This document shows, piece after piece, positions 3,576 through 23,426 of a stretch of 23,830 nucleotides of DNA. The position numbers and the translations under genes were made by a program. Position 1 is the first letter of the stretch. The number at the start of each line of letters is the position of its first letter. Source of the stretch: Chloroflexota bacterium (GTDB lineage: Bacteria; Chloroflexota; Anaerolineae; B4-G1); NCBI GenBank assembly GCA_024232355.1, contig JAAEPW010001114.1, forward strand, positions 1 through 23,830. Reading direction: 5' to 3'. The notes beneath the pieces were generated by a model that was not told the origin of the DNA, made no database searches, and saw only the letters and a list, made by a program, of their open reading frames with translations.

Positions 3576-4556
3576 TTAACCAGTTGCTGCTTGTACGGCC
3601 AACGTGCAACAGCTCTCGATGAACGAGGTGCGCAGCCCCAGCTCGTCGGCTAGACGCACGGTGGCGGGGTCAGGGTAGGCGACGCTGTTAACGCCCGCCA
3701 GCACGGACCGCCGTTCCATTTCGACTTTGGCTGGGCCGGATGGACGCGCGCAGCCCATCGTCAGGGGAGTAGTGGGGTGGAGCAGGCGAGCTACGGCGGC
3801 CAAGCGCCCGACGGCCTCAGGGTCCACCAGCGGTGCGTCTGCCATCGGCGTGCGAGATAGCGGGCGCAGCACGACGATCACGACGACCTCTGCTCCCGCC
3901 TGCTGAATCATCTCCAAGGCAGCCAGTTCGCCGCGCAGTTGACCATAGTAGAGGCCCGCGATAACGTGCGGGGCGACTGGCACCTCCAGTTCGCGCAGCA
4001 TCGCCAGCGTCTCGGCATAATCGTCGGGCGAACGGTCGAGGTGGAGCACCTCGCGGATGGTGGCCGCGTCGCCAATGACGTCAAAGAGTACCTGGTCAAC
4101 CCCGACTGCTTTCAGGCCCTCGGCCGTCTCCCGGTCCAACAGGCCGGTGTGCACGAGGACGCGCAATCCTAACCCTTTGAGTTGGGCGATGGCGGGCAGG
4201 TGAGCCTTGATCGGAACCGCGCCGTCGACATCGGCGCCGCCGCTGATGAGCACCCCCTCGCAGCCCTGCTCGATCAACTTGTGCCCCTGGGCCAGCAGCG
4301 CGTCGGGTGTGGGGGCGGGCCGCATCCCGGTCAAAAGCCGCCCCTTACAGTGCTCGCACATCAACTCGCAGTCGCGCCCGGTTAGGCTGATGCTGGCAAA
4401 GCGGTGCGGGGTGTTTTGATAATGTTCGGTATCGTAGCGCTTGGCTCCCGGCACGGCGAATGTGAGGTCGTCTGGGTGATGGGCGCGACGTGCTTCCCAG
4501 GCCGCGGATTGCAGTTCTTCCCAGGTTTGGTTAAAGAGAGTTTCGGATTTGTTCAT
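3576..4556 (-). CDS. Radical SAM protein, LipS1/LipS2-type lipoyl synthase component
   Basis: This 326-residue radical SAM protein has the cluster motif C-x3-C-x2-C (Cys63, Cys67, Cys70 in DCELMCEHC), a glycine-rich SAM-contact segment (LISGG), and conserved C-terminal blocks MGCARPSGPAK and AGVNSVAYP with a final ESCC. It resembles the biotin-synthase-like proteins now called LipS1/LipS2, which together insert two sulfurs into a protein-bound octanoyl group to make lipoyl. I infer this role from the second radical SAM gene 12 bases upstream and the lipoate ligase and LipT-like genes in the same region. I cannot tell which of the two is LipS1. The start is the ATG with GGAG 6 bases upstream; a TTG four codons earlier is less likely. 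It is the last gene of a tight run starting at the thioredoxin/CcdA gene. Confidence 0.75.
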   Translation of the reverse strand: MNKSETLFNQTWEELQSAAWEARRAHHPDDLTFAVPGAKRYDTEHYQNTPHRFASISLTGRDCELMCEHCKGRLLTGMRPAPTPDALLAQGHKLIEQGCEGVLISGGADVDGAVPIKAHLPAIAQLKGLGLRVLVHTGLLDRETAEGLKAVGVDQVLFDVIGDAATIREVLHLDRSPDDYAETLAMLRELEVPVAPHVIAGLYYGQLRGELAALEMIQQAGAEVVVIVVLRPLSRTPMADAPLVDPEAVGRLAAVARLLHPTTPLTMGCARPSGPAKVEMERRSVLAGVNSVAYPDPATVRLADELGLRTSFIESCCTLAVQAATG

Positions 4557-4568
4557 ACTTTTCTCCAA

Positions 4569-5609
4569 CTATGGGGCATTCTCCTGTGGACCATAATCCT
4601 TCAACTGGTAACGAACCAGCTCCACATCCTCCGGCTCGGGCAAAAAAGCATAGTTGCGGATCGGGCGACCGGGCCGCTCGTTGCCAAAGGGCCGATTGCA
4701 AGCCACCACGCCGTCGGGGCCGGAGCAGCCAGAGGTCATGAACGGTTCGCCGTACTGGATCAGTTCGTCGGTCCGGGTGCCAAAATCGACCACCTGTCCC
4801 GCGTTGTTGAATTCCATCTTTTCGCAACGACCGTGTCCCTTGTTGATGATATAGCGCGCCAGTTGCACCCGCCGGTACTGGCCATACGTGGGCTGCGGGT
4901 GATCGTCCATCGCTGTGCCGCCCTCGGGGAAGAAGGAAAAGAGATGCGTGTAGGCACCCATATCCTGGGCGCGTTGGATGGTGGCGATCATCTCTTGCTC
5001 TGTCTCGCCCAGCCCGGTGATGAGGTGTACGCCGACGTTGTCGTGGCCAAAGATGCGGGCCGATTCTTCCACCGTGGCCCAATAGTGCTCCCACTTGTGT
5101 GGCCCGCCGACCTCTTTGCCCCGGTAGCGCTCGAAAAGCTCGGGCGTGGCGGCATCTATGGCGACGCCGATCATGTCGGCCCCCGCTTTCTTGATTTCGG
5201 CCAAGCGAGATAGATCGTGGATGAGGGTCGGAGCGATCAGGGCCGAGATCGGACGGTCGGATTCTGTGTGAAAGCGGTGGATGATGGTGTTCATATCGTC
5301 AAAAGCTTGGCGATGGGTGATCATCCCCACACAGACGCGCTTGAGCCGGCGTCCCTCCCGATTCAGCCGGGTGATAATGTCGTCCACGGCGTAGGTGGGC
5401 CAGTCCACGCGGATAAAGGTGCGCTTTTCCGAGTTCACCTGGCGCTGCCGGCTGAGGCCGCAGAACCCGCAACTGCCCACGCAGCCGTCGGGATAGGTCA
5501 CAAGCAGGTTCAGGCCGGTCAGATAAGAGTTTCGGCGGAACATGGCTCCCCGGTATCCTAGGGCCATCGCTGCCGCCAAACTGGTTTGTACATGTTCTGG
5601 ACTTTGCAT
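4569..5609 (-). CDS. Radical SAM protein, LipS1/LipS2-type lipoyl synthase component (second of pair)
   Basis: This 346-residue protein has the radical SAM motif C-x3-C-x2-C (Cys43, Cys47, Cys50 in GCVGSCGFC), a central barrel-like region (VGVHLITGLGETEQE), and a C-terminal pair of cysteines (Cys295, Cys304) in TSGCSG...ACNRPFGN, which may ligand an auxiliary cluster. With its neighbour it fits the two-protein lipoyl synthase (LipS1+LipS2) that replaces LipA in many archaea and some bacteria; both partners are radical SAM enzymes consuming SAM and a sacrificial iron-sulfur cluster. The start is the ATG after AAGGAG with 6-base spacing. The reading frame extends far upstream, but that part overlaps the acetyltransferase-like gene in another frame and is not coding. 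The downstream radical SAM gene begins 12 bases after its stop. The radical SAM assignment is firm; the LipS role is inference from context. Confidence 0.75.
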   Translation of the reverse strand: MQSPEHVQTSLAAAMALGYRGAMFRRNSYLTGLNLLVTYPDGCVGSCGFCGLSRQRQVNSEKRTFIRVDWPTYAVDDIITRLNREGRRLKRVCVGMITHRQAFDDMNTIIHRFHTESDRPISALIAPTLIHDLSRLAEIKKAGADMIGVAIDAATPELFERYRGKEVGGPHKWEHYWATVEESARIFGHDNVGVHLITGLGETEQEMIATIQRAQDMGAYTHLFSFFPEGGTAMDDHPQPTYGQYRRVQLARYIINKGHGRCEKMEFNNAGQVVDFGTRTDELIQYGEPFMTSGCSGPDGVVACNRPFGNERPGRPIRNYAFLPEPEDVELVRYQLKDYGPQENAP

Positions 5610-5632
5610 AATTTGCTCCTTGCTTTTCAGTT

Positions 5633-6481
5633 TTACTGGGATGTTTCCCAAGATGTTGTTACTGTCAGTGCAGCGTGCACTGTGTCCACGTCCATACCAA
5701 AATGCTCGCCCACGGTTTTGGCCACGTGCCCATCCAAGAGATGCTCCGTTCGTTCTCCCTCCCAAAAAGATTCGATGCACAGCGGCGTCTCGGAAGAACA
5801 AAAGCGCCAAGCCCGGTCGTTCACAACCTTGCAAATGATGATGCGATCCAAAAAGTGGCCGTTCGAGCCATAGTCGGCCGTTGTCGCGGCGCGATAGGCG
5901 TCGTCGGATATGGGCGTGTCGATCAACGTATAGCAGTTGGGCTTGGGGTGTTTGGTGCGCTCGACCTGGCACACACCCTCTCCATCGGGGCGCACGGTGT
6001 AGGTGTGGAACGCGCTGTCCCGCTGGGTCGGGGCGGATGGGTCGATGCGCAACGGGATGTAGAGGGGGATTCCGCCATCGACCAGCCAGCGTTCGCCGTC
6101 AATGTGCAGCACGATGGCCGCGTGGCACCCGATCTTTTCGCCCATATTGTTGATGGTCAAATAGCCCTCATAGCCCAGTGAGCGCAGCAAGCTGAACAGG
6201 GCATAGTTACTCTCGAAACAGGTACCCCCGCCGCCGTGCGTCATCGCGTCGGCCCAGAACTCGTCGGGCCAGCGCGGGCAGTCGGCTGTGTGGGGCGTGC
6301 GGGCGCGTTTGGCGATGCGAAAGGCGCTCTCCCACGGCACGGTGCGGGTGTAGGCTGTGACAATGGTTTCGATGAGATCGAGGGTCGGAGACGCTGCGAG
6401 CACGCCCAGATAGGATAATGCGGCGCGCGTCAGTTCGGGCGACAGAGGGGCAGTGATGGTTTTCTTCAATGCGTCTGACAT
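5633..6481 (-). CDS. Arylamine N-acetyltransferase (NAT)-fold protein
   Basis: This 282-residue protein carries the Cys-His-Asp triad of the NAT superfamily: Cys88 in GGGGTCFESN, His120 in GCHAAIVL, Asp135 in WLVDGGIP. NAT enzymes move acyl groups from acyl-CoA to amines through the cysteine; some family members act in biosynthesis with carrier-bound acyl chains. Its length fits a NAT core. It overlaps the upstream NfnA-like gene by 16 bases and lies 23 bases before the first LipS-like gene, so it is part of the same transcript. A role in acyl or lipoyl handling is possible, but only from location. The start at MSDALKK is chosen because residues before it read as out-of-frame Arg/Gly-rich sequence overlapping the upstream gene. 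The ribosome binding site is weak, suggesting translational coupling. Confidence 0.75.
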   Translation of the reverse strand: MSDALKKTITAPLSPELTRAALSYLGVLAASPTLDLIETIVTAYTRTVPWESAFRIAKRARTPHTADCPRWPDEFWADAMTHGGGGTCFESNYALFSLLRSLGYEGYLTINNMGEKIGCHAAIVLHIDGERWLVDGGIPLYIPLRIDPSAPTQRDSAFHTYTVRPDGEGVCQVERTKHPKPNCYTLIDTPISDDAYRAATTADYGSNGHFLDRIIICKVVNDRAWRFCSSETPLCIESFWEGERTEHLLDGHVAKTVGEHFGMDVDTVHAALTVTTSWETSQ

Positions 6482-7376: not shown

Positions 7377-9446
7377 TCATTTCCTTCTTTTGGAATGTTT
7401 CGGTCGTTTTGTCACCTGCGCGGCGGGAGTCGATTTTTCCAGAATTTGCGCGACGATCACCCCGATAGCAATGATGACGGCTACCACAACCAACACTGTC
7501 CATCTCTGTTCTGCGGAAACGCCAAACTGTTTTGCCGTTTCCCAGGCCATCAGCAGCGTCAGGCCGATGAATAACGCGGCCGTGCTGGCCTTGATCTTGG
7601 CGACGTGACGGGCGACGAATAGCCCCAACTGCTCCGACGTGGTGCCGAAATAGCTAAACAGGAACACGACGACCAAGGGAAGGATGAACATCAAGCAATA
7701 GAGCACCAGGTAGAGAAAAGCCTGGTTGGCAAGATCGGGGTTGCTCGTCATGTACATGAGTGTGGGATAGTACACTTGTCCTGTGCAGGCCAACTCGATC
7801 AGCGAGATCACAAAGCCGAGTACAAAGGACATTGCCACAAAGGCCTGCACTTGCACGTTCTCACGGATTACCTTGTTGACCATCCGGCGCAAGTTTGCAG
7901 GCAGCTTGAGCGTCATGTCGCTGGCCTGGCCCCGGCGCGCCCTGAAAAAGTCGCGAAAGGTAAGAATAGCCAGAACCCCACAGATCAGCGTGGTGAGCAA
8001 GTAAACCCAGCGTCCCAACAGGGGAAAGATTTCGAGTGTTTGGATCACTTTGAACATGCCGATCCCAACCAGCAGATAAGTGAGAAACACGCCCAAGGCA
8101 AACGCCGCCCCTACGAACAGGATGTCGCGTCCCTGGCGGCCGGTCAGGGTCATATAAGAGATGAGGAAAACCAGGGTGGCAAACGCGCACGGGTTCAGTC
8201 CATCGATCAGGCCCGCCCCCAGAATGGTGAATGCACCCCAGCTCTTAAATCGCTCAATTATTGTTATTGTAGGATCTGTTGGATCAAAATCGCTCCAGGT
8301 GGGCTCGGCTCCGTTGGGAACATACTTGTCTATCACAGCCACCATGTTGCGGAGATTGGCTTCTGTATCGACGAGCACGTCTTGGCCGATAAACAGCATC
8401 GGCGCGACGAGATGTTTATCTTCCGGCACACCATATTCATTGGATAACCACTCGTTGAGTAGCGTGTTCTCTTCATCCTCGATGGAAAAGCGCTCGATCT
8501 GCACCTGGGGATACCGTTCTTTGATCACGTTGAGATCATAGTTGGTGCTGGCACATTCGGCGCAACCGGCCTTTTCGAAATAGGCGATGTAAATGGGTTG
8601 TGCTTCTGGCACAGGTGTTGGGAGCGCGTCTTCTCCTATCTCGTCCAACGACGGAAGCTGGGAACCCCCTTCGGCCAGATATTTTTCCACCAAGCCCGGC
8701 AGCTCGCGCTCGATCTCGTCGAGACCCACCAGCATCTGTCGATCTATGAGAACCTGCGGCGTGCCGGGGGGAGGATCGAGTACTCGTAACGCATCATTCA
8801 GTTCACCCAGAGTCTCGACGTTCTCGGGGATGCTTGTGTCCAGGGTATAGACTTCGACCCCGTCGCCGTACGTTTCGCCCAGTGAGACGACAATGTCGTT
8901 CAATGAATCAAAGTTGGATTGAGTCGGTTCAAAGACAATCAAAATCTGGACGGCCGGCGTCGGAGTGGGCAGTATCACCTCGGGCAAATTCTCCAACGAG
9001 GTATAGTCCACGCCACCCTGGGCCAGGTACGCGTCAATGAGGGATTCAAGCTGCTCGGGAATTTCACTGCCCCCAATTAGCACCTTGTCGCCAATGACGA
9101 GCGCGGGAACCGATCCTTGTCTCTCTTCTGGCACCCCCAGCTTTGTCTCAAGCCCCAGAAATGTGAGGTACTTGTCCGTGTCGTTCCAGACCTCGATGTA
9201 TTCGTACTCGACCTGATCGCCATACTTTTCATAGACCTGGGGCAGAAAATCATCCATCACATCGTGGCAGTGCGGACAGGTCTCGCCGTAGAACAGGTAA
9301 AAGCGAACGACAGGCTCTTCCTGCGCGTTCGCTTCCTGCGCGTTCGCTTCCTGCGCGTTGACCCTTGACCCGCTACCCAGCGTCAAGGATAGCGAAAGCA
9401 GTGTCAAAATGAACAACCATACAAACGTATTCGAGTTTTTCCTCAT
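7377..9446 (-). CDS. Membrane thiol-redox protein: three thioredoxin-like domains plus CcdA/DsbD-type domain
   Basis: This 689-residue protein begins with a signal peptide followed by a 5-residue unit repeated three times (NAQEA). Domain 1 is thioredoxin/glutaredoxin-like with CPHC (57-60). Domain 2 (about 165-265) has the same architecture and VLIDRQMLVG but no CxxC. Domain 3 has CAEC (295-298). The C-terminal part (about 400-670) has about six to seven membrane helices with the CcdA/DsbD cysteines, one in LNPCAF (Cys420) and one in ELACTGQ (Cys554). CcdA/DsbD proteins carry electrons from cytoplasmic thioredoxin to outer thiols, so this fusion probably passes reductant to its own extracytoplasmic domains. 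The start has AGAGGT 8 bases upstream. The stop TGA overlaps an ATG of the NfnA-like frame, and the lower-strand order suggests one transcript through to the radical SAM genes. Confidence 0.85.
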   Translation of the reverse strand: MRKNSNTFVWLFILTLLSLSLTLGSGSRVNAQEANAQEANAQEEPVVRFYLFYGETCPHCHDVMDDFLPQVYEKYGDQVEYEYIEVWNDTDKYLTFLGLETKLGVPEERQGSVPALVIGDKVLIGGSEIPEQLESLIDAYLAQGGVDYTSLENLPEVILPTPTPAVQILIVFEPTQSNFDSLNDIVVSLGETYGDGVEVYTLDTSIPENVETLGELNDALRVLDPPPGTPQVLIDRQMLVGLDEIERELPGLVEKYLAEGGSQLPSLDEIGEDALPTPVPEAQPIYIAYFEKAGCAECASTNYDLNVIKERYPQVQIERFSIEDEENTLLNEWLSNEYGVPEDKHLVAPMLFIGQDVLVDTEANLRNMVAVIDKYVPNGAEPTWSDFDPTDPTITIIERFKSWGAFTILGAGLIDGLNPCAFATLVFLISYMTLTGRQGRDILFVGAAFALGVFLTYLLVGIGMFKVIQTLEIFPLLGRWVYLLTTLICGVLAILTFRDFFRARRGQASDMTLKLPANLRRMVNKVIRENVQVQAFVAMSFVLGFVISLIELACTGQVYYPTLMYMTSNPDLANQAFLYLVLYCLMFILPLVVVFLFSYFGTTSEQLGLFVARHVAKIKASTAALFIGLTLLMAWETAKQFGVSAEQRWTVLVVVAVIIAIGVIVAQILEKSTPAAQVTKRPKHSKRRK
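9315..9359 (-). repeat. 15 bp unit repeated three times in coding sequence (NAQEA repeat)
   Basis: Three head-to-tail 15 bp units at 9345-9359, 9330-9344 and 9315-9329 encode NAQEA, NAQEA, NAQEE just after the signal peptide of the thioredoxin/CcdA protein. Two units are identical and the third differs by two bases. The in-frame unit length means copy number can change by slippage without breaking the gene. Confidence 0.85.
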
Positions 9447-9514: not shown

Positions 9515-10030
9515 CTACAGATGCTTTCTCATATGCACGACTTGGAACTCTTTGCCGTCGATCTCGCCTACAGTCTCATTGAAAACCTCAAAGCCGATTC
9601 TTTCATAGACATTGATCGCACGTTTGTTAAAGGTCGCCACTCCCAACCGGACGTATTCACCCGTATAGTTGTGTTTTGCGACCGCAAATTCAATGCACGC
9701 CGATACAAACCCGGTTCCCAAACCAAGCCCTGTGAATTCAGGTTTGAGCCCAAACCCGATCCACATTTCCGCGCGATTCAGTTTCTCATCATCGAAATCG
9801 TCGTACTCGATGTAATCGTCATTTTCGTCAAAGAACTCTGTCGTAAGCTCGCCAAGCAAATCTCCCTTTTCGTTGAGAACGGCAAACAATCCCTTTCCCC
9901 AGCTTTCCGAGCCCAGCATATGATCGGCTTCATTGGCATAATCATAGATCGAATACTCGCCGTCGTACTTCCAATGAGTGACGATCTCGTTCGCATATTC
10001 TTGGTTCATTGGGATAAAATTATATTTCAT
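9515..10030 (-). CDS. GNAT family N-acetyltransferase
   Basis: This 171-residue protein shows the GNAT core: an acetyl-CoA-binding segment in the region GLGLGTGF (R/Q-x-x-G-x-G/A type) after a beta strand (AEMWIGFGLKPEF), and the C-terminal motif VRLGVATFNKRAINVYERIGFE, typical of this superfamily. The substrate cannot be read from the sequence. The ATG at 10030 comes one base after the stop of the selenoprotein gene, with GAGG inside that gene's end, so it is translationally coupled. A longer frame upstream overlaps the selenoprotein gene and is not supported. The N-terminal half is unusually acidic (FFDENDDYIEYDDFDDEK). Confidence 0.85.
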   Translation of the reverse strand: MKYNFIPMNQEYANEIVTHWKYDGEYSIYDYANEADHMLGSESWGKGLFAVLNEKGDLLGELTTEFFDENDDYIEYDDFDDEKLNRAEMWIGFGLKPEFTGLGLGTGFVSACIEFAVAKHNYTGEYVRLGVATFNKRAINVYERIGFEVFNETVGEIDGKEFQVVHMRKHL

Positions 10031-10031
10031 A

Positions 10032-10919
10032 CTATTTCTTACCTCGTCGCAAACCGCGCAGGAATTTCCCAATGTAGCGCCCCATGTCGACAGTGATCGG
10101 GGGCGGTGCCTCTGGATGCGAATCGTGCAATGCTTGTTCGAGTGGGTCGGGCCACTTTTCTGGAGAATGAACGATCGTCCCCGGCGACTCGGCCTGCTCC
10201 AACACCTCCAACGCTTGCTGGATGACGTGCATTTGCTGTTCTTTGTTATTGGGTTGCCCTAGGATGTGACCAAACGGGAACTCGATTCCCAATGTCCTTG
10301 GAACGCCGATCTTTTCGGCCCAAAAGGGCATATTGGTCACCATGACGGTCGACATTCCGGCTGCTTCGAACGTACGTGCCAGCACGGGCACGTTGGCCGC
10401 GCACTCGGGTCACGCGGTGGTGAGAAGGACACAGTCCACCTCTTCGGCAAGGAGCTTTTCGGCCACCTGTGGGCCATAGACGTCTCGCCAGCCCGTCAAG
10501 TCTGCCGGAAAGCCTTGGTAGCCCATAAAAGAGTACGCGTGACGCGCGAGTCCGCCGATCTGGCTTTGCTCAACAAGCTCTTGAAACCGTTGGATCGGGA
10601 GCAGGATGTTCATGTCTTTGAGCACATCGCGTTTGTTGATGTGAAGGTGACCGACGTCCACCTCTACCGGTTCCATATCTGTGGGGAGGGTGCGAAAGCT
10701 CGGGTCACCCCAGGCAGGCTCTCGCCGCTCCCGCTCCAGATCAAATGAAGGCTCCTGCCCTTTGTGATACAGGCCGCCCGAAGTCACCAGTCCAAATCGG
10801 CATTGGTTCAAGGGCTGGGAGAGTAGGGTCCAGGGAATGGGCAACTCGGCCTGGACCCGAGTCAGCTTGTAGTATCGGGTGATCAATCGAGACACGTATT
10901 TGAAACTATCTACTGGCAT
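10032..10919 (-). CDS. Selenoprotein of the PrdB/GrdB (D-proline/glycine reductase selenoprotein B) family, UGA read as selenocysteine
   Basis: Two adjacent same-frame segments, 10413-10919 and 10032-10409, are joined by a single in-frame TGA at 10412-10410. Read as selenocysteine (Sec170) it gives LLTTA-U-PEC, a U-x-x-C redox motif at the place where PrdB/GrdB-family proteins carry Sec. The flanks match the family on both sides: CRFGLVTSGGLYHKGQEPSF, DVGHLHINKRD with the NILLPIQRFQELV block, HAYSFMGYQG before the UGA, and TNMPFWAEKIGVPRTLGIEFPFGH after it. A hairpin with SECIS features follows the UGA at the expected distance. The total is 295 residues, nearer PrdB than the longer GrdB. No PrdA/GrdE or GrdA partner is present, so the substrate is unknown. 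The start is the ATG with GAGG 5 bases upstream; a TTG immediately before it is less likely. Confidence 0.85.
10374..10393 (-). promoter_or_regulatory. SECIS-like hairpin downstream of the UGA codon
   Basis: On the transcript a perfect 7 bp stem, ACGUGCC (10393-10387) with GGCACGU (10380-10374), encloses the 6-base loop CGUGCU. The stem begins 16 bases after the UGA and the loop GU lies about 25 bases after it. A small stem-loop with a GU in its loop at this distance is what bacterial SelB recognises in formate dehydrogenase mRNAs. It was found by eye; folding and covariation are untested. Confidence 0.75.
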
Positions 10920-10931
10920 CAAGACCTCAAT

Positions 10932-11093: not shown

Positions 11094-12158
11094 TCAACGC
11101 CTCTTGCGCCGACCATACGCCTTGAACGCCACCCACGTTTCGCGGACGACGTCGCTCAACGATGCCGCATCATCACTCCAACGCTCGTCGAGATAGCGCC
11201 GTTTGTTCAGCGCGTGGCGCAGCGGGCCGCCCATAAAGGCCGACCACTCTTGCTCGTACCCATCTAATGCCGCGAGATCGTCATCTTTGATCACCTGGGC
11301 AGCCGCCTGACCAGCCAGCGTACCACTGACAACAGCCGCAAATATCCCCGCGCCCGTGACCGGGTGCGTGTGACCGGCGGCATCGCCTACCAGCAGAACG
11401 TTCCTTTCGCGCAGGCGAGCGACCGATCCACCCGAAGGCACCGGCCCGGCAGTGCGGCCCACGATCATGCCCGGCGTGATCTCTAATTGTGCCAACAAGT
11501 GCTCCAACGCCTGGCGCGGATCGCCTCCCATCTTCCGGTTGACGCCCACGCCCACGTTGGCCGTCTCGCCCTTGGGAAAGAGCCAGCCGTAGCCGCCCCG
11601 GTACACGGGGTCGAAATAGACCTCGGTAAAGTCCTGCGGCGCTGGGAGCACGGCCTCGACCTGCAAGCCGTCGATGAACTCGGCGTTTGTGGGTCCGATC
11701 CACTTGCCCACGGTCGAGCGGGGGCCGTCGGCACCGATAACAACGCGGCATTCGATCTCAACATCCTTGTTCCGCTGCCGGACGATGACGCTGCGATCCG
11801 TCCGTTCCACCGCCCGTGTGCCGGTCCACACCTCGGCCCCGGTCCGGCTGGCAACAACGGCCAGTGACCTGTCGAACGCGGCCCGGTCGAGGACGTACCC
11901 GGCGGCGGGGGTTTCCACGGTCTCGCCGTCGGGCAGATGAGTGTGCAGCTTGCGGATGCGTTGGGCGATGCAGCGCTCCGGCATGGTCACGTAACTCACA
12001 ATTTGCGCCGGGACGTACTCGGCGCACTGCACCGGCAGCCCGACGATGGGCCGCTGCTCGACCAGCAGCACGCGCGTTCCTCCGTCAGCCGCGACGCGGG
12101 CCGCAGTGCTGCCCGCCGGTCCCGCACCGACGACGAGCACGTCAAACCGTTCAGTCAT
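11094..12158 (-). CDS. FAD-dependent oxidoreductase of the geranylgeranyl reductase family, LipT-like
   Basis: This 354-residue flavoprotein has an N-terminal FAD-binding motif (VLVVGAGPAGSTAARVAADG) and the second family motif VLLVGDAAGHTHPVTGAGI, with GYVLDRAAFD and GADGPRSTVGKW between, as in geranylgeranyl reductase-like enzymes. LipT, a protein of this family, is encoded beside sLpl and LipS1/LipS2 in lipoate assembly loci, and its stop-start overlap with the lipoate ligase here (ATGACTGA, 8 bases) points to that role. A role in lipid reduction cannot be excluded from sequence. The ATG at 12158 is preferred over the one at 12167 because GGAGG lies 9 bases before it. The C-terminus is basic (KAYGRRKRR). 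Confidence 0.8.
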   Translation of the reverse strand: MTERFDVLVVGAGPAGSTAARVAADGGTRVLLVEQRPIVGLPVQCAEYVPAQIVSYVTMPERCIAQRIRKLHTHLPDGETVETPAAGYVLDRAAFDRSLAVVASRTGAEVWTGTRAVERTDRSVIVRQRNKDVEIECRVVIGADGPRSTVGKWIGPTNAEFIDGLQVEAVLPAPQDFTEVYFDPVYRGGYGWLFPKGETANVGVGVNRKMGGDPRQALEHLLAQLEITPGMIVGRTAGPVPSGGSVARLRERNVLLVGDAAGHTHPVTGAGIFAAVVSGTLAGQAAAQVIKDDDLAALDGYEQEWSAFMGGPLRHALNKRRYLDERWSDDAASLSDVVRETWVAFKAYGRRKRR

Positions 12159-13743
12159 CCTGTACATCCTCCGCTTGCGGGGCCGTAGGCGCTACCCGTG
12201 CCACGACTCGTTCCAATAAATCGAGCTTGAGATAGGTCTGGTTCTCAAACTGCCCGGCGTAGGCGTCCTGCTCCTTGCCCAGATCGTAGCAGGTGGAGCT
12301 GTCCACGTCCACCAGGATGCCGGGCAGGCCGATGCGTTCGAAATCGTCGCGGTGCTTGGCATAAAAAGGCTCGCAGCAACTGCCCACGAACGCCTCCACG
12401 CCGTTTTGTTTCAACTGTTCCAACGTCTCTTCCAGGTTCTCGTAATTCTGGATCGAGACGGGAGTCAGGCCATACTTTTCGGCGAGGTGATAGCCGTCGC
12501 CGATGCAGCACTCGCCGCATAGCGAACAACCATCCTGGAAACGATATTCACAGCTGGGGAGCTTGGCGCAATAGGGCAAGAGCAACGCCGTACACTTGGT
12601 AATTTCGGGCAGCGATTTGACCACCGAGAAAATATAGTTCACCTCGTCGGGATGGATGTCGTATTCAAGATAGTCGGTCTTTTCCAGGGCCTCGCGCAGC
12701 GTGCGCACCATGTCGGCAGCGGTGACGCCCGGAATCTCGACCTGCTCTGTGGCAAAGAAATCCTCCACGACGCCGCGCACCGTCTCTACGTCGGCCCGCA
12801 CGCCCTTGAGCCGCGCCTCCAGGTCGAGGATGGCCCGCCGGGGGTAGGCGAAAAAGTCGCCCGTGATGAACGCCTCCCGGATGCGCTTGGCCTGCGCGTT
12901 GACCACCAACGCGGCCCGGATCAGCCCGCCGGGGCTTTTGTAGAGGGCGCGCAGTTCGTCTCGCCGGGTCAGCGAGCGGCGCACGCCGTATACCCATTCA
13001 TCGGATTGAAAGTGGGGCAGCTTTTGGGCCAGCAATTCCCGTTCAAAGGGCACCAATGGTCCCGGCTCAAAGCGGACACCCAGCACCTCGGCGAACCCCT
13101 CCGCCAGCGCGGCCTTGATCTGTGCCAGCGGCGGCACCGCGTCCAGTTTCCAGGCCAGGCAGGTGACCCGCTCCCGAACCGAATCGATCTCTTTGTCCTT
13201 TAACTTTTCCGTGGGGATGCGCAGGGCGCGCAGCATCACGTCCACGTCAAAATCGACCAGCAGCGTACCCTGAAAGAGAAACGCGCCGTCGAGACTGGTG
13301 CCGCCAGTGCCAGAGATTTTGCGTCCGTCCACCTCAATATCGTTCTTGGGACGAAAGGCCGCACGCACGCCCAACTTTTCCAGGCCGCGGATGGCCCCCT
13401 GGCACAACATCTCGTACAGCTTTTCGACGCCAGGAGGAAACCGGGGATCGTCCTGTGAGGCATAGACCTCCCAGCCCAACTCGCGCTCGCCCCAGTAGAG
13501 CCCGCCGCCGCCCGTCAGCCGCCGGTTGATGTCGATGCCGTGCTCCTCGCAATAAGAGATGCGAATCTCTTGCTCCACCGACTGGTGGTAGCCGACGAGA
13601 GTGCAGGCGGGAGAAAATTGCAAAAAGCGCAGCGTGTTTGGCACTTGGTTTTGGCTGCGCGCCGTCAATACGACCTCGTCCAAGGCCATATTCTCAGCTG
13701 CTGGTAGCGGCTCGGTATCCAATAATCGCCAGGTTTCTGTCAT
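12151..13743 (-). CDS. lplA: Lipoate-protein ligase fused to a DUF116 Cys-rich domain
   Basis: This 530-residue fusion has three parts. Residues 1-250 are a lipoate/octanoate-protein ligase with RRLTGGGG (74-81), PKNDIEVDGRKISGTGG and the conserved lysine Lys142. Residues 255-335 resemble the ligase C-terminal accessory domain (GGLIRAALVVNAQAKRIREA, ITGDFFAYP). Residues 355-490 match DUF116, with ten cysteines, mostly in CTALLLPYCAKLPSC, GCSLCGECC and GSCCEPF, plus VDVDSSTCYD; these could bind an iron-sulfur cluster or metal. Lipoate ligases attach lipoate or octanoate to lysine of carrier proteins. The fusion and the overlap with a LipT-like gene suggest the ligase works in the LipS-type pathway. 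The start is the ATG; a TTG before it is less likely. The upstream binding site is weak (AAAGG, 11-base spacing). Confidence 0.88.
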   Translation of the reverse strand: MTETWRLLDTEPLPAAENMALDEVVLTARSQNQVPNTLRFLQFSPACTLVGYHQSVEQEIRISYCEEHGIDINRRLTGGGGLYWGERELGWEVYASQDDPRFPPGVEKLYEMLCQGAIRGLEKLGVRAAFRPKNDIEVDGRKISGTGGTSLDGAFLFQGTLLVDFDVDVMLRALRIPTEKLKDKEIDSVRERVTCLAWKLDAVPPLAQIKAALAEGFAEVLGVRFEPGPLVPFERELLAQKLPHFQSDEWVYGVRRSLTRRDELRALYKSPGGLIRAALVVNAQAKRIREAFITGDFFAYPRRAILDLEARLKGVRADVETVRGVVEDFFATEQVEIPGVTAADMVRTLREALEKTDYLEYDIHPDEVNYIFSVVKSLPEITKCTALLLPYCAKLPSCEYRFQDGCSLCGECCIGDGYHLAEKYGLTPVSIQNYENLEETLEQLKQNGVEAFVGSCCEPFYAKHRDDFERIGLPGILVDVDSSTCYDLGKEQDAYAGQFENQTYLKLDLLERVVARVAPTAPQAEDVQDD

Positions 13744-13824
13744 CAATCAATATGCCTTTAAGAAATAGAGTGTTTCATCCGGAACTGGAATCATCGTTCC
13801 ATAGCTAAATGTTGCCTTGCCAAT

Positions 13825-14668: not shown

Positions 14669-15130
14669 TTAATTCGTCAACTCTTTCAACACCGCCTCCG
14701 CCGCGCGCGGAATCGTCGCCTCTACCGTGGGCGTGCATTCTTCGCCAAAGGTCAAGACTTCTTCCACTTCGATGGCAATGATGATAAAATCCTCATCCGT
14801 GGGCAGCGTCAACCCCATGCCGCGCCCCAAGGCCAACGCGCCGGGCAGAGAAACGTCGTGCGTCGAGCCCGAGTGCATCGACACCTTCAAGTCGTTGGGG
14901 TGTATGCGATACATGTCGCCCGGCTTGCCATCACGGGTCTGGATGGCGTCCACCATGATGACCCGCTCGTAGCCGCCGATGACGTCCAGCAGCCGCAGCC
15001 CGCCCACGCTCGCCTCGACAAAGTCCACGTCGTTCCGTTGATAGCGTTTCGCCGCTTCTTGTGCCACGTAAATGCCGATCCCGTCGTCGCACAGGATCGT
15101 GTTGCCCATTCCCAACACCAGTGTTTTCAA
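14669..15130 (-). CDS. [NiFe] hydrogenase maturation endopeptidase (HycI/HoxW family)
   Basis: This 153-residue protein belongs to the peptidase M52 family, which removes the C-terminal tail of the large hydrogenase subunit after nickel insertion. The expected nickel-sensing residues are present at near-HycI positions: Asp16 in CDDGIG, Asp61 in MVDAI, His91 in STHDVSLPG. The N-terminus LVLGMGNTILCDDGIG is typical. The start is TTG at 15130-15128: GAGAGG lies 8 bases upstream, the protein then begins at the family N-terminus, and an upstream in-frame ATG would add 11 unconserved residues. Its substrate is probably MvhA, about 6 kb away, whose C-terminus carries the matching cleavage motif. Context, not sequence, links the two. 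Confidence 0.88.
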   Translation of the reverse strand: MKTLVLGMGNTILCDDGIGIYVAQEAAKRYQRNDVDFVEASVGGLRLLDVIGGYERVIMVDAIQTRDGKPGDMYRIHPNDLKVSMHSGSTHDVSLPGALALGRGMGLTLPTDEDFIIIAIEVEEVLTFGEECTPTVEATIPRAAEAVLKELTN

Positions 15131-15154
15131 AATAATATTCCTCTCAATTCTAAA

Positions 15155-15261
15155 GCCGAGCAATGAATTGCCCGGCTGGTAAACGAAATGCGATAAATCG
15201 CATTGGTCGTCAACACGTTTTTAACGTGTTTCCCCAATCATGCCGCGAATTCATTCGGGGC
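15155..15261. repeat. Array of four small palindromes downstream of the DUF3795 gene
   Basis: Four stem-loops follow one another: GCCG/CGGC with GCAAT/ATTGC (15155-15176), AATGCGAT-2-ATCGCATT (15187-15204), AACACGTT-3-AACGTGTT (15212-15230) and GCC...CGAAT-2-ATTCG...GGC (15242-15261). The last two, as one 52 bp segment (15211-15262), recur at 15637-15688. Confidence 0.6.
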
Positions 15262-17510: not shown

Positions 17511-19055
17511 CTATTCTGAATCATCCTCCTTCCCTTTTACCTTTAGAATAGCTGCGGTCAGCGCGTCAATTTCCTCAAAAGTGTTGTAGAACGCCAATGA
17601 CGGGCGTACCGTGCTCTCCAACCCCAGGCGCCGCAACACCGGTTGAGCACAATGATGCCCAGCCCTGACCGCGATGCCTTCTCTATTGAGTCGTTGCCCT
17701 ACTATCTCATTGGGAATGCCATTCAACACAAATGAAAGTACGCTGACCTTGTGCGGGGCAGTACCAATCAGACGCAGCCCTGGAATCTCGGCCAGCGCCT
17801 GGGTGGCGTACATCAGGAGCGCTTCCTCGTGCTGTATGGCCGCGTGAAACCCAATGCGCTCAAGATAGTCAATCGCCGCCCCCAATCCAACGGCATCGGC
17901 GATATTCCCCGTGCCAGCTTCAAACTTGTGCGGCAGGCTGTTATAGAGCGTACGCTCGAAACGGACGTCCTGGATCATATTGCCCCCGCCTTGCCAGGGC
18001 GGCATCATCTCTAACAACTCGGCCTTGCCGTACAAAACCCCAATCCCGGTTGGGGCAAACAGTTTATGTCCAGAAAAGACAAAAAAGTCACAATTGCTAA
18101 CTTGCACATCCACCGGCATATGGGGGATAGATTGCGCTCCGTCGACCAGCACCCGTGCGCCCACGGCGTGCGCCATCTGCGTCATCGCCAACACCGGATT
18201 CACGGTGCCCAACACATTCGAGACCTGCGTCACGGCCACCAGCTTGGTCCTTGAATTCAGCAGTGCGGCGTACTCATCCAAAAGAATTTCCCCTGCGTCA
18301 TTCATCGGAGCCACCCGCAGCACAGCGCCGGTGGCCTCGCACACCATTTGCCAGGGCACAATGTTGGCGTGATGTTCCATCACAGTGACGACGATTTCAT
18401 CCCCTGGGCGCAGGAAGGTTCTGCCGTAGGATTGAGCGACCAGATTGATTCCCTCGGTGGTGCCGCGGACAAAAACGATCTCTTGCGTATCCTTGGCGCC
18501 GATAAAGGCACGTACCTTTTCGCGCGCCTGTTCGTACGCTTCGGTGGCACGATCCGCCAATGTATGCACACCCCGGTGAATGTTAGAGTTGTCGCGCTCG
18601 TAAAAGCGACTGAGGGCATCGATCACGGCGCGGGGTTTTTGCGTGGTGGCGGCATTATCCATCCAGATCAGGGGTTTGCCGTGCACGCGCTGGTGCAGAA
18701 TCGGGAAATCTCGCCGGATGATATGTACGGGGAAACTAGTAGCCGGCGGCTCTTTAGATGCGGTCATGTTGACCGTAGAACGTTCTCTGGTCCGCTGAGG
18801 GTCGTCCAAAAAATAAAAGCGACCCGTCTGATGTTGTTCGGAGAGAGAGGGCGTAGCAAAGTCCGCCAGAGTGATGTCTGCTCCCTCGTTCTGATCAGCG
18901 AGTTCCTGTGCGTCAATGTCCGGAGCCGAGCTGTCTCCCTCTCGTTCCGGCCTGGATTCCACTGGCTCGCCGGTGTAAAACATATTGGCCAGTTGTTGAA
19001 CGATATCGGGGGCGAGCCATTCCTTTGGTATGTTACTTTCTGGTGGGATATTCAT
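17511..19055 (-). CDS. sufS: SufS-type cysteine desulfurase with N-terminal encapsulin-targeting extension
   Basis: This 514-residue PLP enzyme has the SufS core from about residue 109 (FPVHIIRRDFPILHQ, MDNAATTQKP). The PLP lysine is in FSGHKLFAPTGIG and the catalytic cysteine in RAGHHCAQP. It takes sulfur from cysteine as a persulfide. The first 108 residues are extra: low-complexity, acidic, probably disordered, with MFYTGEP and RFYFLDDP as likely short motifs. Such extensions load desulfurases into family 2 encapsulins, and the encapsulin gene immediately upstream overlaps it by 23 bases. No clear Shine-Dalgarno site precedes the ATG, so translation is probably coupled. The stored product may be sulfur, as reported for family 2A systems; for 2B this is inference. 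Confidence 0.9.
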   Translation of the reverse strand: MNIPPESNIPKEWLAPDIVQQLANMFYTGEPVESRPEREGDSSAPDIDAQELADQNEGADITLADFATPSLSEQHQTGRFYFLDDPQRTRERSTVNMTASKEPPATSFPVHIIRRDFPILHQRVHGKPLIWMDNAATTQKPRAVIDALSRFYERDNSNIHRGVHTLADRATEAYEQAREKVRAFIGAKDTQEIVFVRGTTEGINLVAQSYGRTFLRPGDEIVVTVMEHHANIVPWQMVCEATGAVLRVAPMNDAGEILLDEYAALLNSRTKLVAVTQVSNVLGTVNPVLAMTQMAHAVGARVLVDGAQSIPHMPVDVQVSNCDFFVFSGHKLFAPTGIGVLYGKAELLEMMPPWQGGGNMIQDVRFERTLYNSLPHKFEAGTGNIADAVGLGAAIDYLERIGFHAAIQHEEALLMYATQALAEIPGLRLIGTAPHKVSVLSFVLNGIPNEIVGQRLNREGIAVRAGHHCAQPVLRRLGLESTVRPSLAFYNTFEEIDALTAAILKVKGKEDDSE

Positions 19056-20454
19056 AATAGTTCGCTACGTCCACATTCTCGAGCACGCCCAGCGCGTCAT
19101 CTACCAACACCACGACCGAATAATAGAGCGTCATCAGATAGTTAGCGATGGCTTTTTGATCAATCCCCATAAAGCGAATTGACAATCCTGGCATAATCTC
19201 GCCTTCAGTGCCGCTTTGATGCAGTCCTACCACCCCCTGTTCTGATTCCCCCACCCGCATGAGCAGGATACTGGTGGTAGGGCTTCCGGTGGCGTGATTG
19301 AGCATCAATTTATCGCACGGAATCAGAGGTACGCCGCGCCAGGTTATGAATGACGAGCCGAAAAGCTCAATCGCCACCGGTGGCACCCCGCGCCAGGTAC
19401 ATTCCCGTCCAAAGGCCGCGATTGCCCTGGGGTGAGCCAAAAAGAAGGCGGGTTTCTTCCAGACTTTGGTTAGCAATTCGTCCATATCGTCGGGTGTTGG
19501 CGCTCCGGCGCGCGTATGCACCCGCATCGAACGCGGCGCTGCATAGAGCAAGCCGAATTCTGGATTGTTGATCATTTCCCATTCCTGGCGTTCTTTGAAC
19601 GTCTCAGTAGCCAGGCGTACCTGTTCGGCATATTGCAGGTGAGGATCGTTATATAGATCCAGCACGCGAGTATGAATCTTGACAGCGCCTTGAATAATGT
19701 TGAGGGCATATTCTTTGGGATACTCGTCGTAATCCACGACGGTATTGGTGATGTCGGCGTCTTCGCTATGGAATGACGATACGTCGATCAGGCTTTCGCC
19801 GAATTCATTCATAATCAGATCTTTGAGTTCGTAGCGTTGTTTGACCACGTCCTGAAAGCGCGCCTTGATTGCCGGGTCTCGATCCAGAATCGTCAGAAAC
19901 TGCTCTCGTTCCAGCGTCAGGCACATGCACGGCGTCAGGGCCTTGACACTCGCCATGCGGGGCTTATCTTCCATCAAGGCAACCTCGCCGAAATAGTCGC
20001 CTGCACCGCTAATCTTGATCGAAACGTTCTTGTCGTACAGGTTCTTGGCATAGATCTCAACCTTGCCCTGCGCCACAATATAAAACGTGTCCCCTGGCTT
20101 GCCTTCATCGATGATAGTGTCGCCGGCGTTAAACGGGGTGCTTTCAAACTGTTGGCAGATCGATGCCAACAGTTCGTCATCGGCTTCTCGAAATAACGAC
20201 AACGCGCGTAGATCTTGGGGCTGCAATTTCACTTGATCGTCGACAACCGTAAACCTGATTATCTCGTCGGTGGGGAGTAACGTCTTGTGCCGGTTCACTC
20301 GGTATGTGCCGCCCTGCACGTTGACCCAGGGCAGCAACTTGAGAAACCAGCGCGGCGTAATCCCCAGCATCTGGGGTCGTGTCTTGGAGATGGTGGCCAG
20401 ATTGCGGGCCGCCATAGTCTTGATGCTGTAGGGTTTAAAGGTTGATTCAGCCAT
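19033..20454 (-). CDS. Family 2B encapsulin shell protein with cNMP-binding domain
   Basis: This 473-residue protein combines an HK97-fold shell protein with a cyclic-nucleotide-binding domain near the N-terminus (about 83-205; the phosphate-binding motif FGEVALMEDKPRMASV at 155-170 keeps the Glu and Arg). The remainder matches family 2 encapsulins (QVRLATETFKERQEWEMINNPEFGLLYA, DELLTKVWKKPAFFLAHP, ECTWRGVPP, VGLHQSGTEGEIMPGLSIRFMGID). Encapsulins assemble into hollow protein shells holding enzyme cargo; cNMP binding may gate or regulate the shell. The cargo is the SufS-type enzyme in the overlapping downstream gene. The start MAESTF is chosen because AGGAGG lies 6 bases before it; the frame upstream is open but has no family match. 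Confidence 0.92.
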   Translation of the reverse strand: MAESTFKPYSIKTMAARNLATISKTRPQMLGITPRWFLKLLPWVNVQGGTYRVNRHKTLLPTDEIIRFTVVDDQVKLQPQDLRALSLFREADDELLASICQQFESTPFNAGDTIIDEGKPGDTFYIVAQGKVEIYAKNLYDKNVSIKISGAGDYFGEVALMEDKPRMASVKALTPCMCLTLEREQFLTILDRDPAIKARFQDVVKQRYELKDLIMNEFGESLIDVSSFHSEDADITNTVVDYDEYPKEYALNIIQGAVKIHTRVLDLYNDPHLQYAEQVRLATETFKERQEWEMINNPEFGLLYAAPRSMRVHTRAGAPTPDDMDELLTKVWKKPAFFLAHPRAIAAFGRECTWRGVPPVAIELFGSSFITWRGVPLIPCDKLMLNHATGSPTTSILLMRVGESEQGVVGLHQSGTEGEIMPGLSIRFMGIDQKAIANYLMTLYYSVVVLVDDALGVLENVDVANYYEYPTRK

Positions 20455-20516
20455 TGTTCCTCCTCTTTTCTGTATATAGCATTGTGATTCCTTGTGACCT
20501 CTCAGCAAACGAGAAC

Positions 20517-20541
20517 GCCCACCACTACCTTGACGGTGGGC
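20517..20541 (-). promoter_or_regulatory. Hairpin in the encapsulin leader
   Basis: A perfect 7 bp stem (20517-20523 with 20535-20541) closes an 11-base loop, 63 to 87 bases before the encapsulin ATG. The role is unknown; it could affect translation or mRNA stability. Confidence 0.4.
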
Positions 20542-20655
20542 AGGCAACTTTACGATAACGAGCGGTCTGTTTCGCAACACTTGGTATTCACATCAAGGTA
20601 CCCTTTCCTGGTTGTGGTCTCGATCTATTCGAGGTTGCGAGGCGTTTGCACTGCA

Positions 20656-20913: not shown

Positions 20914-20997
20914 GTCAGTGTACGCTCAACTATTGTAGCGAGGTATGGAAACCTCGGCTACATTGCTATCGCAGCGAGCGACCTACTCCATATTATG
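20826..20997. repeat. 173 bp direct repeat, copy B (after mvhA)
   Basis: This is the partner of 17321-17493. Its right end covers the last codons and stop of mvhA (to about 20997), so similarity between the copies extends into that coding end. It contains the same 78 bp imperfect inverted repeat (20836-20913) and smaller stem (20934-20962). Confidence 0.88.
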
Positions 20998-22452
20998 CTT
21001 CAAAACCCGCACCACCTCACCATCAGAGTCGCGGCGGATGCGCACCTCTAGCGGCATCTGGCCGGGCAGGGTGTGCGTGGCGCAGCCAAAGCACGGGTCG
21101 TAGGAGCGGAAGGCCATCTCGACCATGTTCAACTTGCCCTCGTCGACCTCGCCGCCCTTGATCAACGCCTGCGCCGCTTTCTTGACCGAGATCGAGATCG
21201 GCGCATAGTTGTTGGTCGTGCCGACAACGAGATTGGCCCGCGTCACGATGCCGCGCTCGTCGGTGAAATAGTGGTGTGTCAGCGTGCCGCGCGGCGCTTC
21301 GACGATGCCCACACCCTCGGTCGGGGTTTCTGTGGGGATGTTGCGCACGTGCGGGTCGGTGATGCCGGGGTCCCGCGTCAGCTCGACGAGGCGCTCGGCA
21401 GCGTAGAGCAGCTCGACCAGGCGCGCCCAGTGAGTGACCAGGGTGCCGTGCACCGGCTTGCCGCCCAGCGTCGAATACAACTCTTCGTAGGCTTCCTGCG
21501 CCTTGGGCGTGGCCATACCGTCGGAGGCGTTGAGCCGCGAGAGCGGTGTGGCCTGGTAGACGCCGCTGTCCATACCGGTCGTGAATCCCTTCCAACCTAT
21601 CTTTTTCAGATAGGGGAATTTGAGGTATGTCCAAGGCTCCACGTGCTCGGCGATGATGTCCAGATACTCGTCCGGGCCGTACTTGACAAACTCGTTCCCC
21701 TCGGGGTCCACGACGCGCACTTTGCCATCGTAAAAGTTGACCTTGTTGTTCTCGTCCACCATCCCCATATAGTACATGGGCGTGGTAAAAGCGTCCGAAA
21801 GGATCAGGTCCAGATACGCCTGGTTCCCCAGCACTACGTCGCGGAAGAGTTGCAGACTGAACAACGCAAAGTCGATCAACTCGAGGCCGGTGGCCTCGAA
21901 CTGAGCACGTTCTTCCTCGTTGATCGCCTTGCTCACGCCGCCGGGGATCGCGCTGATGGGATGGATGTGCTTTCCACCCAACTGGCCCACAATGTCCATC
22001 GCCTTGCCACGGGCAGCGATGACGGCGCCACCGGTCTCCAGGCCGACCTTGTGGATCAGGCCCAGGATGTTGCGCTCGGCAACGGGTGCCGTCGGCCCCA
22101 ACACAAAGTCGGGGGCGGCCAGGATGTAAAAGTGGACGGTGTGGTCGGCGACGTAAAAGGCCGAGTAGAGCAGCTCTCGCAGCATTTTGCCCGCTGGGGG
22201 CACCTCGACGTTATAGACCGCGTCGCAGGCTTTGGCCGACGCCATGTGGTGTGCCTCCGGGCAGACGCCACAGATGCGGGGCGTGATGCGCGGCAGCTCT
22301 TCCACAGGCCGACCTTCAGAGAACTTTTCGAACCCACGCAACTCGGGGATGATCAGATAGGCATTGGCGACATCTCCATCATCGTTCAGGAAAATGTCGA
22401 TCTTGCCGTGCCCCTCTAGGCGGGTTATTGGATCGATACTTATCTTTTTCAT
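20983..22452 (-). CDS. mvhA: F420-non-reducing-type [NiFe] hydrogenase large subunit
   Basis: This 489-residue protein holds the nickel-iron active site of a group 3 hydrogenase. The N-terminal ligand motif is [11 protein letters not shown] (Cys61, Cys64) and the C-terminal one DPCFGCATH (Cys454, Cys457, His460). All four nickel ligands are cysteines, not selenocysteine. After His460 a tail of 29 residues remains, which a HycI/HoxW-type peptidase would remove; such a gene is at 14669-15130. With MvhG and MvhD it oxidises H2 and passes electrons to a heterodisulfide reductase-like HdrA, which would be expected upstream. The start ATG overlaps the mvhG stop (ATGA). A terminator follows. Confidence 0.93.
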
Positions 22453-23423
22453 TCAACTTTCTCCAATTTTTTCCGGTGCAGCAGAGACGCTGGCAAGCCG
22501 AAACGGTAGAACGTGCCGACCGGATCTGCGATCTCGCCCACGATGCGGGCGGCTTCTTCCTCGGTGTCGGCATCTACGACAGAGGCCACCGCCGAGAGAA
22601 GCGCTGCGCCCTGGTCGATCACGCCCGGTGCCGGGCCGTAACAGCCACGGCAGGGCAGGTCGACGGTGGTGCATAGCGCGCCACAGCCGCCCCGCGTCGC
22701 CGGGCCAGAGCAGATGATGCCCTGGTCAAAGAGACAGGCGTCGTGGTCGGGGATGATCTCGTGCGGGCGGTAGAATTTCTTGATGCGTTTCTCCTCCCGG
22801 CTGTGCTTGCACTCGTCGCACACAGTTTTGTCTGGGCTGGCTCCGACCACGCTTCCCGCGGGCGGCAGGTTGCCGGTCAGGATCGCCTCGACTACGGCCC
22901 AGATCTGCGGGGCCTGCGGCGGGCAGCCGGGGATATAGTAATCCACCTTTGCCACCTGATCCAGCGTCTTGACCGTGTTGTAAAAGTAGGGAATGGTCAC
23001 CTCACCCTCGGGCATCTGGTAAGAAGTCTGCGGCAGAATGCCGTCGGGGTTGACCGTCGATTCCGACGTCAGGTACGCGCGCTCAAAGATCGAGTCCCGG
23101 TCGAACAGGTTGCCCAGCCCCGGGATGCAGCCCTCGTGGGCGCACGATCCAAAAGCGACGAACACCTTGGACTTTTTCCGCATCAGGTGAGCCATCTCTT
23201 CGTTCTCGCTGGTGCGGATGGCGCCGTTAAAGAGAAAGACGTCCATGTGCCCATCGGGCATCGCCTCGACGTCCTTGTACTTGGCATCCACCGCTACCGG
23301 CCAAAAGAGAATGTCGGCCGCTGCGTCCAGGTCAATGATCTTTTCCCGTAACTCTACGATGGCGATCTCGCATCCACCGCAGGAGGCGGCCCAGTAAAGT
23401 CCTAATTTCAGTTTATCTGCCAT
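22449..23423 (-). CDS. mvhG: F420-non-reducing-type [NiFe] hydrogenase small subunit
   Basis: This 324-residue protein carries the iron-sulfur clusters that link MvhA to MvhD. The proximal-cluster cysteines are in ASCGGCEIA, GSCAHEGCIP and GCPPQ, and the C-terminal part adds cysteine clusters: VCDECKHSREEK, CLFDQGIICSGPATRGGCGALC and PCRGCYGPAPG. There is no twin-arginine signal peptide, as expected for a cytoplasmic group 3 enzyme. The start has AAGGAGG 8 bases upstream and lies 3 bases after the mvhD stop. The stop overlaps the mvhA start. Confidence 0.92.
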   Translation of the reverse strand: MADKLKLGLYWAASCGGCEIAIVELREKIIDLDAAADILFWPVAVDAKYKDVEAMPDGHMDVFLFNGAIRTSENEEMAHLMRKKSKVFVAFGSCAHEGCIPGLGNLFDRDSIFERAYLTSESTVNPDGILPQTSYQMPEGEVTIPYFYNTVKTLDQVAKVDYYIPGCPPQAPQIWAVVEAILTGNLPPAGSVVGASPDKTVCDECKHSREEKRIKKFYRPHEIIPDHDACLFDQGIICSGPATRGGCGALCTTVDLPCRGCYGPAPGVIDQGAALLSAVASVVDADTEEEAARIVGEIADPVGTFYRFGLPASLLHRKKLEKVE

Positions 23424-23426
23424 GGC

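Follow-up and report, generated by a model that had tools for sequence, protein, structure and literature searches.

A PrdB-like gene of Chloroflexota predicted to encode a stand-alone selenoprotein

Introduction

The closest described relatives of the gene reported here are the selenoprotein subunits of D-proline reductase (PrdB) and of the glycine, sarcosine and betaine reductases (GrdB). In D-proline reductase, it has been proposed that the pyruvoyl group of PrdA binds D-proline and that the selenocysteine (Sec) of PrdB, found at position 152 of 242 in the C. sticklandii protein, attacks the alpha carbon to give a selenoether. This intermediate would be resolved by a PrdB cysteine and the selenol restored by PrdC, while in glycine reductase electrons arrive via thioredoxin (PMC3091704, in its available part).

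PrdB with its UxxC motif is a listed selenoprotein family (PMC13188914, PMC9312934, available excerpts) and has been encountered repeatedly in environmental sequences. The Sargasso Sea set holds 42 Sec and one Cys PrdB sequences, described by the D-proline reaction in the available text (PMC1088965), and the GOS set 235 Sec and 110 Cys sequences, assigned to PF07355 in the excerpt at hand (PMC2398784). The selenoproteins listed for Anaeromyxobacter dehalogenans and for a Geobacter in the accessible part of PMC1794560 also include a 'proline reductase'. Since PrdB selenoproteins with UxxC have already been reported, Sec is expected in a member of the PrdB/GrdB superfamily; the missing partner subunit and the breadth of the group in Chloroflexota, which are described below, are less expected. 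A literature search returned no paper on a PrdB-like selenoprotein without PrdA, or on the Chloroflexota group.

The gene was found in a stretch of 23,830 nucleotides from a Chloroflexota bacterium, analysed as a whole and hereafter called the window. As compared with PrdB (TIGR04483), the window protein is homologous at residues 29-253 and likewise carries UxxC, but it is longer at both ends, and neither PF09338, the pyruvoyl-subunit family, nor PrdA was found in 20 relatives of the window gene. With the GrdB proteins (PF07355, TIGR01917/01918) it has in common UxxC and a homologous C-terminal part; however, GrdB profiles span 431-435 positions, while the window protein, of 295 residues, matches the C-terminal part of each only, and GrdA, present beside GrdB in glycine reductase, was not found in the 20 relatives. 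The selenoproteins called 'proline reductase PrdB' in the Sargasso Sea and GOS sets, to which the window protein is likened by their published descriptions as far as the available text gives them, likewise carry UxxC, and in both sets, as in the Chloroflexota genes read below, Sec forms outnumber Cys forms.

The gene and its read-through product

The gene lies on the minus strand and comprises the following features:

10925..10928, minus strand: GAGG, 5 bases ahead of the ATG, which we take to be a Shine-Dalgarno-like site
10919..10032, minus strand: PrdB-like gene of 295 residues with predicted Sec at codon 170 (TIGR04483, E 5e-43)
10919..10917, minus strand: start codon ATG
10412..10410, minus strand: in-frame TGA, codon 170, the predicted Sec codon of a UxxC motif (U-P-E-C) with Cys173
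10034..10032, minus strand: stop codon TAG

The original prediction was that of a gene split by one in-frame TGA, and its coordinates proved exact: the TGA at codon 170 is the sole interruption of the 295-residue frame in 10919..10032. The read-through protein scores 147.2 bits with TIGR04483, whose equivalog cut-off is 300, and 23.5 bits with the Pfam family GRDB (PF07355), a narrow margin over the gathering cut-off of 22, the latter profile being matched at positions 221-346 of 347 only. These profile matches place the protein in the PrdB/GrdB superfamily. It is probably not a D-proline reductase, because it reaches 147 of the 300 bits and because the pyruvoyl family and GrdA were each found in 0 of the 20 relatives.

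It had been considered that an eroded downstream half would betray a pseudogene. As measured against the closest relative (locus L018), pN/pS is 0.186 before the TGA and 0.205 after it. Against three further loci, constraint is somewhat weaker after the TGA than before it (0.256/0.356 for L001, 0.259/0.362 for L002 and 0.346/0.383 for L005, before/after), these comparisons being made at 0.65-0.84 synonymous differences per site, near saturation. Judged from these ratios, the half downstream of the TGA is under purifying selection similar to that acting on the upstream half.

An AlphaFold2 model of the read-through product, computed from 67 sequences with Cys in place of Sec, consists of one confident fold (pLDDT averaging 96.2 across the full 295 residues) in which residue 170 sits between a strand (163-167) and a helix (171-186). 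Across the 67 aligned rows, G49, D72, R76, H91, D102, P108, G133 and Sec/Cys170 are invariant, as are C173, E185, T191, P207, R208 and G221. Fold searches returned no clear relative.

Codon 170 is TGA or a cysteine codon

In a protein database search, 1,189 of 2,380 candidates matched at E <= 0.001, and the best 120 were considered. Among these, 117 (one being the window's own) are 169-182 residues long and cover 57% of the query; public annotation therefore ends them at or near the TGA. The three others do not simply end there: P0002 is without the UxxC stretch, P0005 is without the Sec side of it and P0085 has Trp at the Sec position. All three are perhaps gene-calling artefacts, or real variants.

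A genome scan recovered 21 loci in 20 metagenome-assembled genomes (MAGs) whose titles name Anaerolineae, Anaerolineales, Ardenticatenales, Dehalococcoidia or Chloroflexi, the closest (L018) being 74% identical to the window gene. One of the loci numbered in this work, L024, contains an additional in-frame TAG. Codon 170 was read in 69 genes, namely the window gene, 19 of the scan loci and 49 further Chloroflexota genes, the last obtained by searching 301 Chloroflexota genomes (69 with a match). It is TGA in 59 genes and TGC or TGT in 10, so that every one of the 69 carries a predicted Sec or a Cys and none carries anything else, as expected if the position is a genuine Sec site. The 10 Cys genes are every stop-free listed match that spans the codon, other listed matches, mostly with one TGA, being left out. 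In a quick, unrooted tree of 67 rows built without the codon-170 column, the Cys genes form one side of a single branch (SH-aLRT 100).

A SECIS-like hairpin follows the TGA

Bacterial SECIS elements carry a G (GU) in the apical loop of a hairpin located just 3' of the UGA. The window gene contains a candidate of this kind:

10374..10393, minus strand: SECIS-like hairpin of 7 bp, stem 10393..10387 / 10380..10374, loop 10386..10381 (CGUGCU)

The stem starts 16 bases after the TGA and its 6-base loop includes GU, exactly as claimed at the outset in both position and loop. Folding of the bases after the TGA had been suggested as a check: for the window sequence taken singly, the energy is typical of shuffled controls (z +0.33 for 45 nt and -0.96 for 60 nt). 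A stem with at least the observed score occurred there in 374 of 20,000 synonymous recodings drawn with the window's codon usage (2,479 had a best stem of at least 7 bp), at 72 of 5,887 codon positions taken from the remaining genes of the window and, within the PrdB-like gene itself, at 8 of 275. Given these counts, the hairpin on its own is about a 1-3% event. Rfam gave no match anywhere in the window.

Despite this ordinary single-sequence fold, the hairpin is taken to be real because the comparison across TGA and Cys genes is decisive. The best stem has 6-8 bp in all 59 TGA genes and scores at least 15 in 58 of them, while none of the 10 Cys genes reaches 15 (highest 14.5). Mean scores are 18.0 for the Sec genes and 10.65 for the Cys genes (Mann-Whitney p 3.5e-7), and mean minimum free energies -11.4 and -6.3, respectively.

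Covariation was assessed in two alignments. The first (A2, 27 distinct rows) was made from the subfamily of the window gene together with the sister subfamily. All 27 rows form the six inner pairs, while 8 form the outermost one, and two inner pairs are changed on both sides (pair 21-38 as C-G or U-A, pair 23-36 as U-A, U-G or C-G). For three of five covariation measures, no more than one of 500 shuffles did as well, whereas two of them, both-side pair changes and further pair types, were not above shuffles. The second (A3, 25 distinct rows) holds the other, more distant Sec genes; four pairs are changed on both sides, and for each of the five measures no more than 3 of 500 shuffles did as well. 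In this group, the hairpin is placed differently, about 5 bases nearer the UGA, and most of the loops have 3 bases. Two genes, L069 and L071, have unrelated stem sequences at nearly the position seen in other genes of the A3 type.

The codons bear a corresponding imprint. Across 20 sequences, synonymous choice is frozen at codons +7 to +9, counted from the TGA (GTG for 17 of 17 Val, CCC for 20 of 20 Pro and GTG for 19 of 19 Val), and mean synonymous diversity is 0.25 at codons +6 to +12, as compared with 0.53 at +1 to +5 and 0.59-0.68 upstream, at +13 to +20 and at later codons; hairpin codons +10 to +12 do vary synonymously. At the sequence level, the conservation of the hairpin and the lack of a comparable one in Cys genes fit what is predicted for a SECIS, unlike what protein-level constraint alone would produce.

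Selenocysteine machinery in the relatives

A lack of Sec machinery would have spoken against the reading of the TGA as Sec, and the opposite was found in the relatives: SelA and SelB, both over their cut-offs, and tRNA-Sec were each detected in 16 of the 20 MAGs. SelB exceeded its cut-off in 2 of 14 controls and SelA in 1 of 14; tRNA-Sec was counted at 59 bits or more in the relatives, the model at a lower cut-off having matched in 5 of 14 controls. All 20 relatives have SelB over cut-off or tRNA-Sec of at least 59 bits. In G018, the MAG of the closest relative, SelA and SelB are present and no convincing tRNA-Sec was found, a 50-bit match there being a tRNA-Ser. SelB was also sought in two further sets of 10 genomes. 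All 10 chosen for a TGA-form gene had it over cut-off, as did 6 of the 10 chosen for a Cys-form gene, one genome of the latter group (G313) holding TGA forms too.

Collectively, the exchange of Sec and Cys, the conserved and covarying hairpin and the Sec machinery of the relatives sustain the prediction of a selenoprotein with SECIS, and the PrdB-like gene almost certainly encodes a real selenoprotein with a bacterial SECIS, as far as comparative sequence data can establish it.

No pyruvoyl partner was found in 20 relatives

That no other glycine or proline reductase gene lies nearby holds for the window, in which no ORF matched another family of these reductases (19 ORFs scanned with Pfam and one more with NCBIfam, overlapping minor ORFs being left out). 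Partner subunits were searched in the genomes of the 20 relatives, which represent the window's subfamily only. PF09338 was found in 0 of 20, as compared with 4 of 4 control genomes, and GrdA (PF04723) in 0 of 20, as compared with 3 of 4, the four controls having been picked for several GrdB-like matches. PrdA (TIGR04480) was also found in 0 of 20; this model stayed below its cut-off everywhere and matched weakly in 5 of 10 other genomes, which is why PF09338 is the better partner test. The suspicion that the protein stands outside glycine and proline reductase is thereby strengthened, with the reservation that MAGs are incomplete and absence of a partner is consequently not proof. Very probably, the gene encodes a full-length selenoprotein which acts stand-alone, without pyruvoyl partner. 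Among the other Chloroflexota, one genome (G189) shows an unusual expansion, with 18 PF09338 matches, seven TGA-bearing PrdB/GrdB-like matches and no GrdA match.

Redox genes in the neighbourhood

Two genes follow the selenoprotein gene on the same strand:

9515..10030, minus strand: GNAT acetyltransferase, with one base between the selenoprotein stop and its first ATG
7377..9446, minus strand: thioredoxin-like domain joined to a membrane part of weak similarity to ArsG transporters, all matches lying below curated cut-offs

The GNAT gene is inferred to be on the same transcript as the selenoprotein gene, and the thioredoxin-domain membrane protein is a possible candidate reductant. Neither gene belongs to a cluster common to at least three loci when the window is compared with 20 loci from relatives, of which several are short. 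The proposed tie to lipoate and thioredoxin/CcdA genes was not borne out, no such cluster recurring in at least three of these loci.

Other redox genes occur locally, their identities having been obtained by scanning one member of each group. Three of the 20 relative loci have a Redoxin/AhpC-TSA gene 0.8-3.4 kb upstream, and a SelR (methionine-sulfoxide-reductase) gene is found on the opposite strand near three sister-subfamily loci. In another subfamily, a thioredoxin gene precedes the PrdB-like gene by about 100-125 bases in six near-identical genomes, which count as one event given the tree. Nine of the 20 relative loci (L001, L002, L004, L005, L008, L014, L015, L017 and L019) also have a gene of the GDPD (glycerophosphodiesterase) family 0.1-4.2 kb upstream, on the same strand in six and the opposite strand in three.

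Proposed mechanism and alternatives

By analogy with known systems, a mechanism can be proposed. UGA codon 170 would be read as Sec, the SECIS 16 bases downstream recruiting SelB and Sec-tRNA as in the known bacterial mechanism. Sec170 and Cys173 would act together as the redox pair of UxxC, where the helix begins. As in PrdB and GrdB, Sec may attack an electrophilic substrate, after which Cys173 would resolve the adduct to a selenenyl-sulfide, to be reduced by a thioredoxin-like donor. Catalysis would proceed without pyruvoyl subunit, unlike in D-proline or glycine reductase, and the substrate must therefore differ from theirs. This cycle of Sec attack, Cys173 resolution and thioredoxin-like reduction is an analogy which could prove right or wrong with about equal likelihood.

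The main rival to such a cycle on another substrate is a peroxidase-like role, in which Sec170 and Cys173 of a thiol-dependent peroxidase or disulfide reductase would act on peroxides or disulfides rather than on a carbon substrate. The UxxC pair itself and the thioredoxin, SelR and Redoxin/AhpC-TSA neighbours at some loci are consistent with this role, as is a title cited in PMC3091704, in its available part, which reports peroxidase activity of GrdB. However, these redox neighbours do not recur broadly, and the polar residues D72, R76, H91 and D102, far from UxxC in sequence and invariant in the 67 rows, suggest a specific substrate pocket. As they returned no clear relative, the fold searches do not decide on this reading, which we regard as possible but rather unlikely.

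It is improbable that the protein is instead a subunit of a D-proline or glycine/betaine reductase whose pyruvoyl partner is encoded at another genomic site and escaped detection because the MAGs are incomplete. The TIGR04483 match, the GRDB score just over cut-off and a UxxC arrangement and proposed chemistry as in PrdB (PMC3091704, available part) are all in keeping with such a subunit. Moreover, one control genome, G251, holds a sister-subfamily gene (L023) together with PF09338 and GrdA genes on another contig, and other subfamilies may thus differ from that of the window. Against this stand a score below half of the PrdB equivalog cut-off and, in the window's subfamily, the 20 relatives in which PF09338, PrdA and GrdA were all sought and none was found.

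A pseudogene, a sequencing error or an ordinary stop between two separate short proteins is very hard to sustain: public annotation does end at the TGA in 117 of the best 120 homologues, yet the codon recurs in 59 of 69 genes of many MAGs with Cys in the remaining 10, constraint is similar across it and one predicted fold spans it. Least probable of all is a genome-wide reassignment of TGA to Trp or Gly, which the Trp of P0085 might evoke, as genes without the TGA carry Cys in 10 of 10 cases and, in L018, a TGA comes after the homologous region has ended. Six other ORFs of the window, of which five have family matches, likewise terminate in TGA, which is thus not globally recoded.

Returning to a stand-alone selenoenzyme, we tentatively suggest, as a reading somewhat less likely than not, that these genes represent an unrecognised Chloroflexota class with PrdB-like Sec chemistry and a substrate needing no pyruvoyl activation. 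If this is true, much of what is called 'proline reductase PrdB' in environmental sequences would represent this enzyme or relatives of it rather than D-proline reductase. The Sec codon truncates more than 100 such genes in standard annotation (117 of the best 120 homologues), and many are named after D-proline reductase. Should the protein indeed act alone, a selenoprotein family that is common in the environment may conceal a reaction not yet described, and the number of PrdB sequences would be no measure of proline reduction of the Stickland type. Given the predicted SECIS and the split between Sec and Cys forms, expression and testing of the protein should be straightforward.

Other genes of the window

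Several other genes of the window deserve mention. At 3576..5972 and 12151..13746, LipS1-like and LipS2-like lipoyl synthases are encoded along with a lipoate-protein ligase (LplB-like and DUF116 parts), possibly a non-classical lipoyl assembly set; the synthases score just below their NCBIfam cut-offs (221.6 of 230 bits for LipS1 and 231.7 of 270 for LipS2). At 17511..20580, a Family 2B encapsulin shell gene overlaps a class-V aminotransferase gene, presumably cysteine-desulfurase-like, and the two are possibly shell and cargo. The end of the window (20983..23828) encodes a NiFe hydrogenase large subunit related to VhuA/VhuU, a small subunit and FlpD/MvhD. VhuU can carry Sec at the position equivalent to that of the DPCFGC motif, and the large subunit has Cys at this site. 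A HycI-type maturation protease is encoded at 14669..15163.
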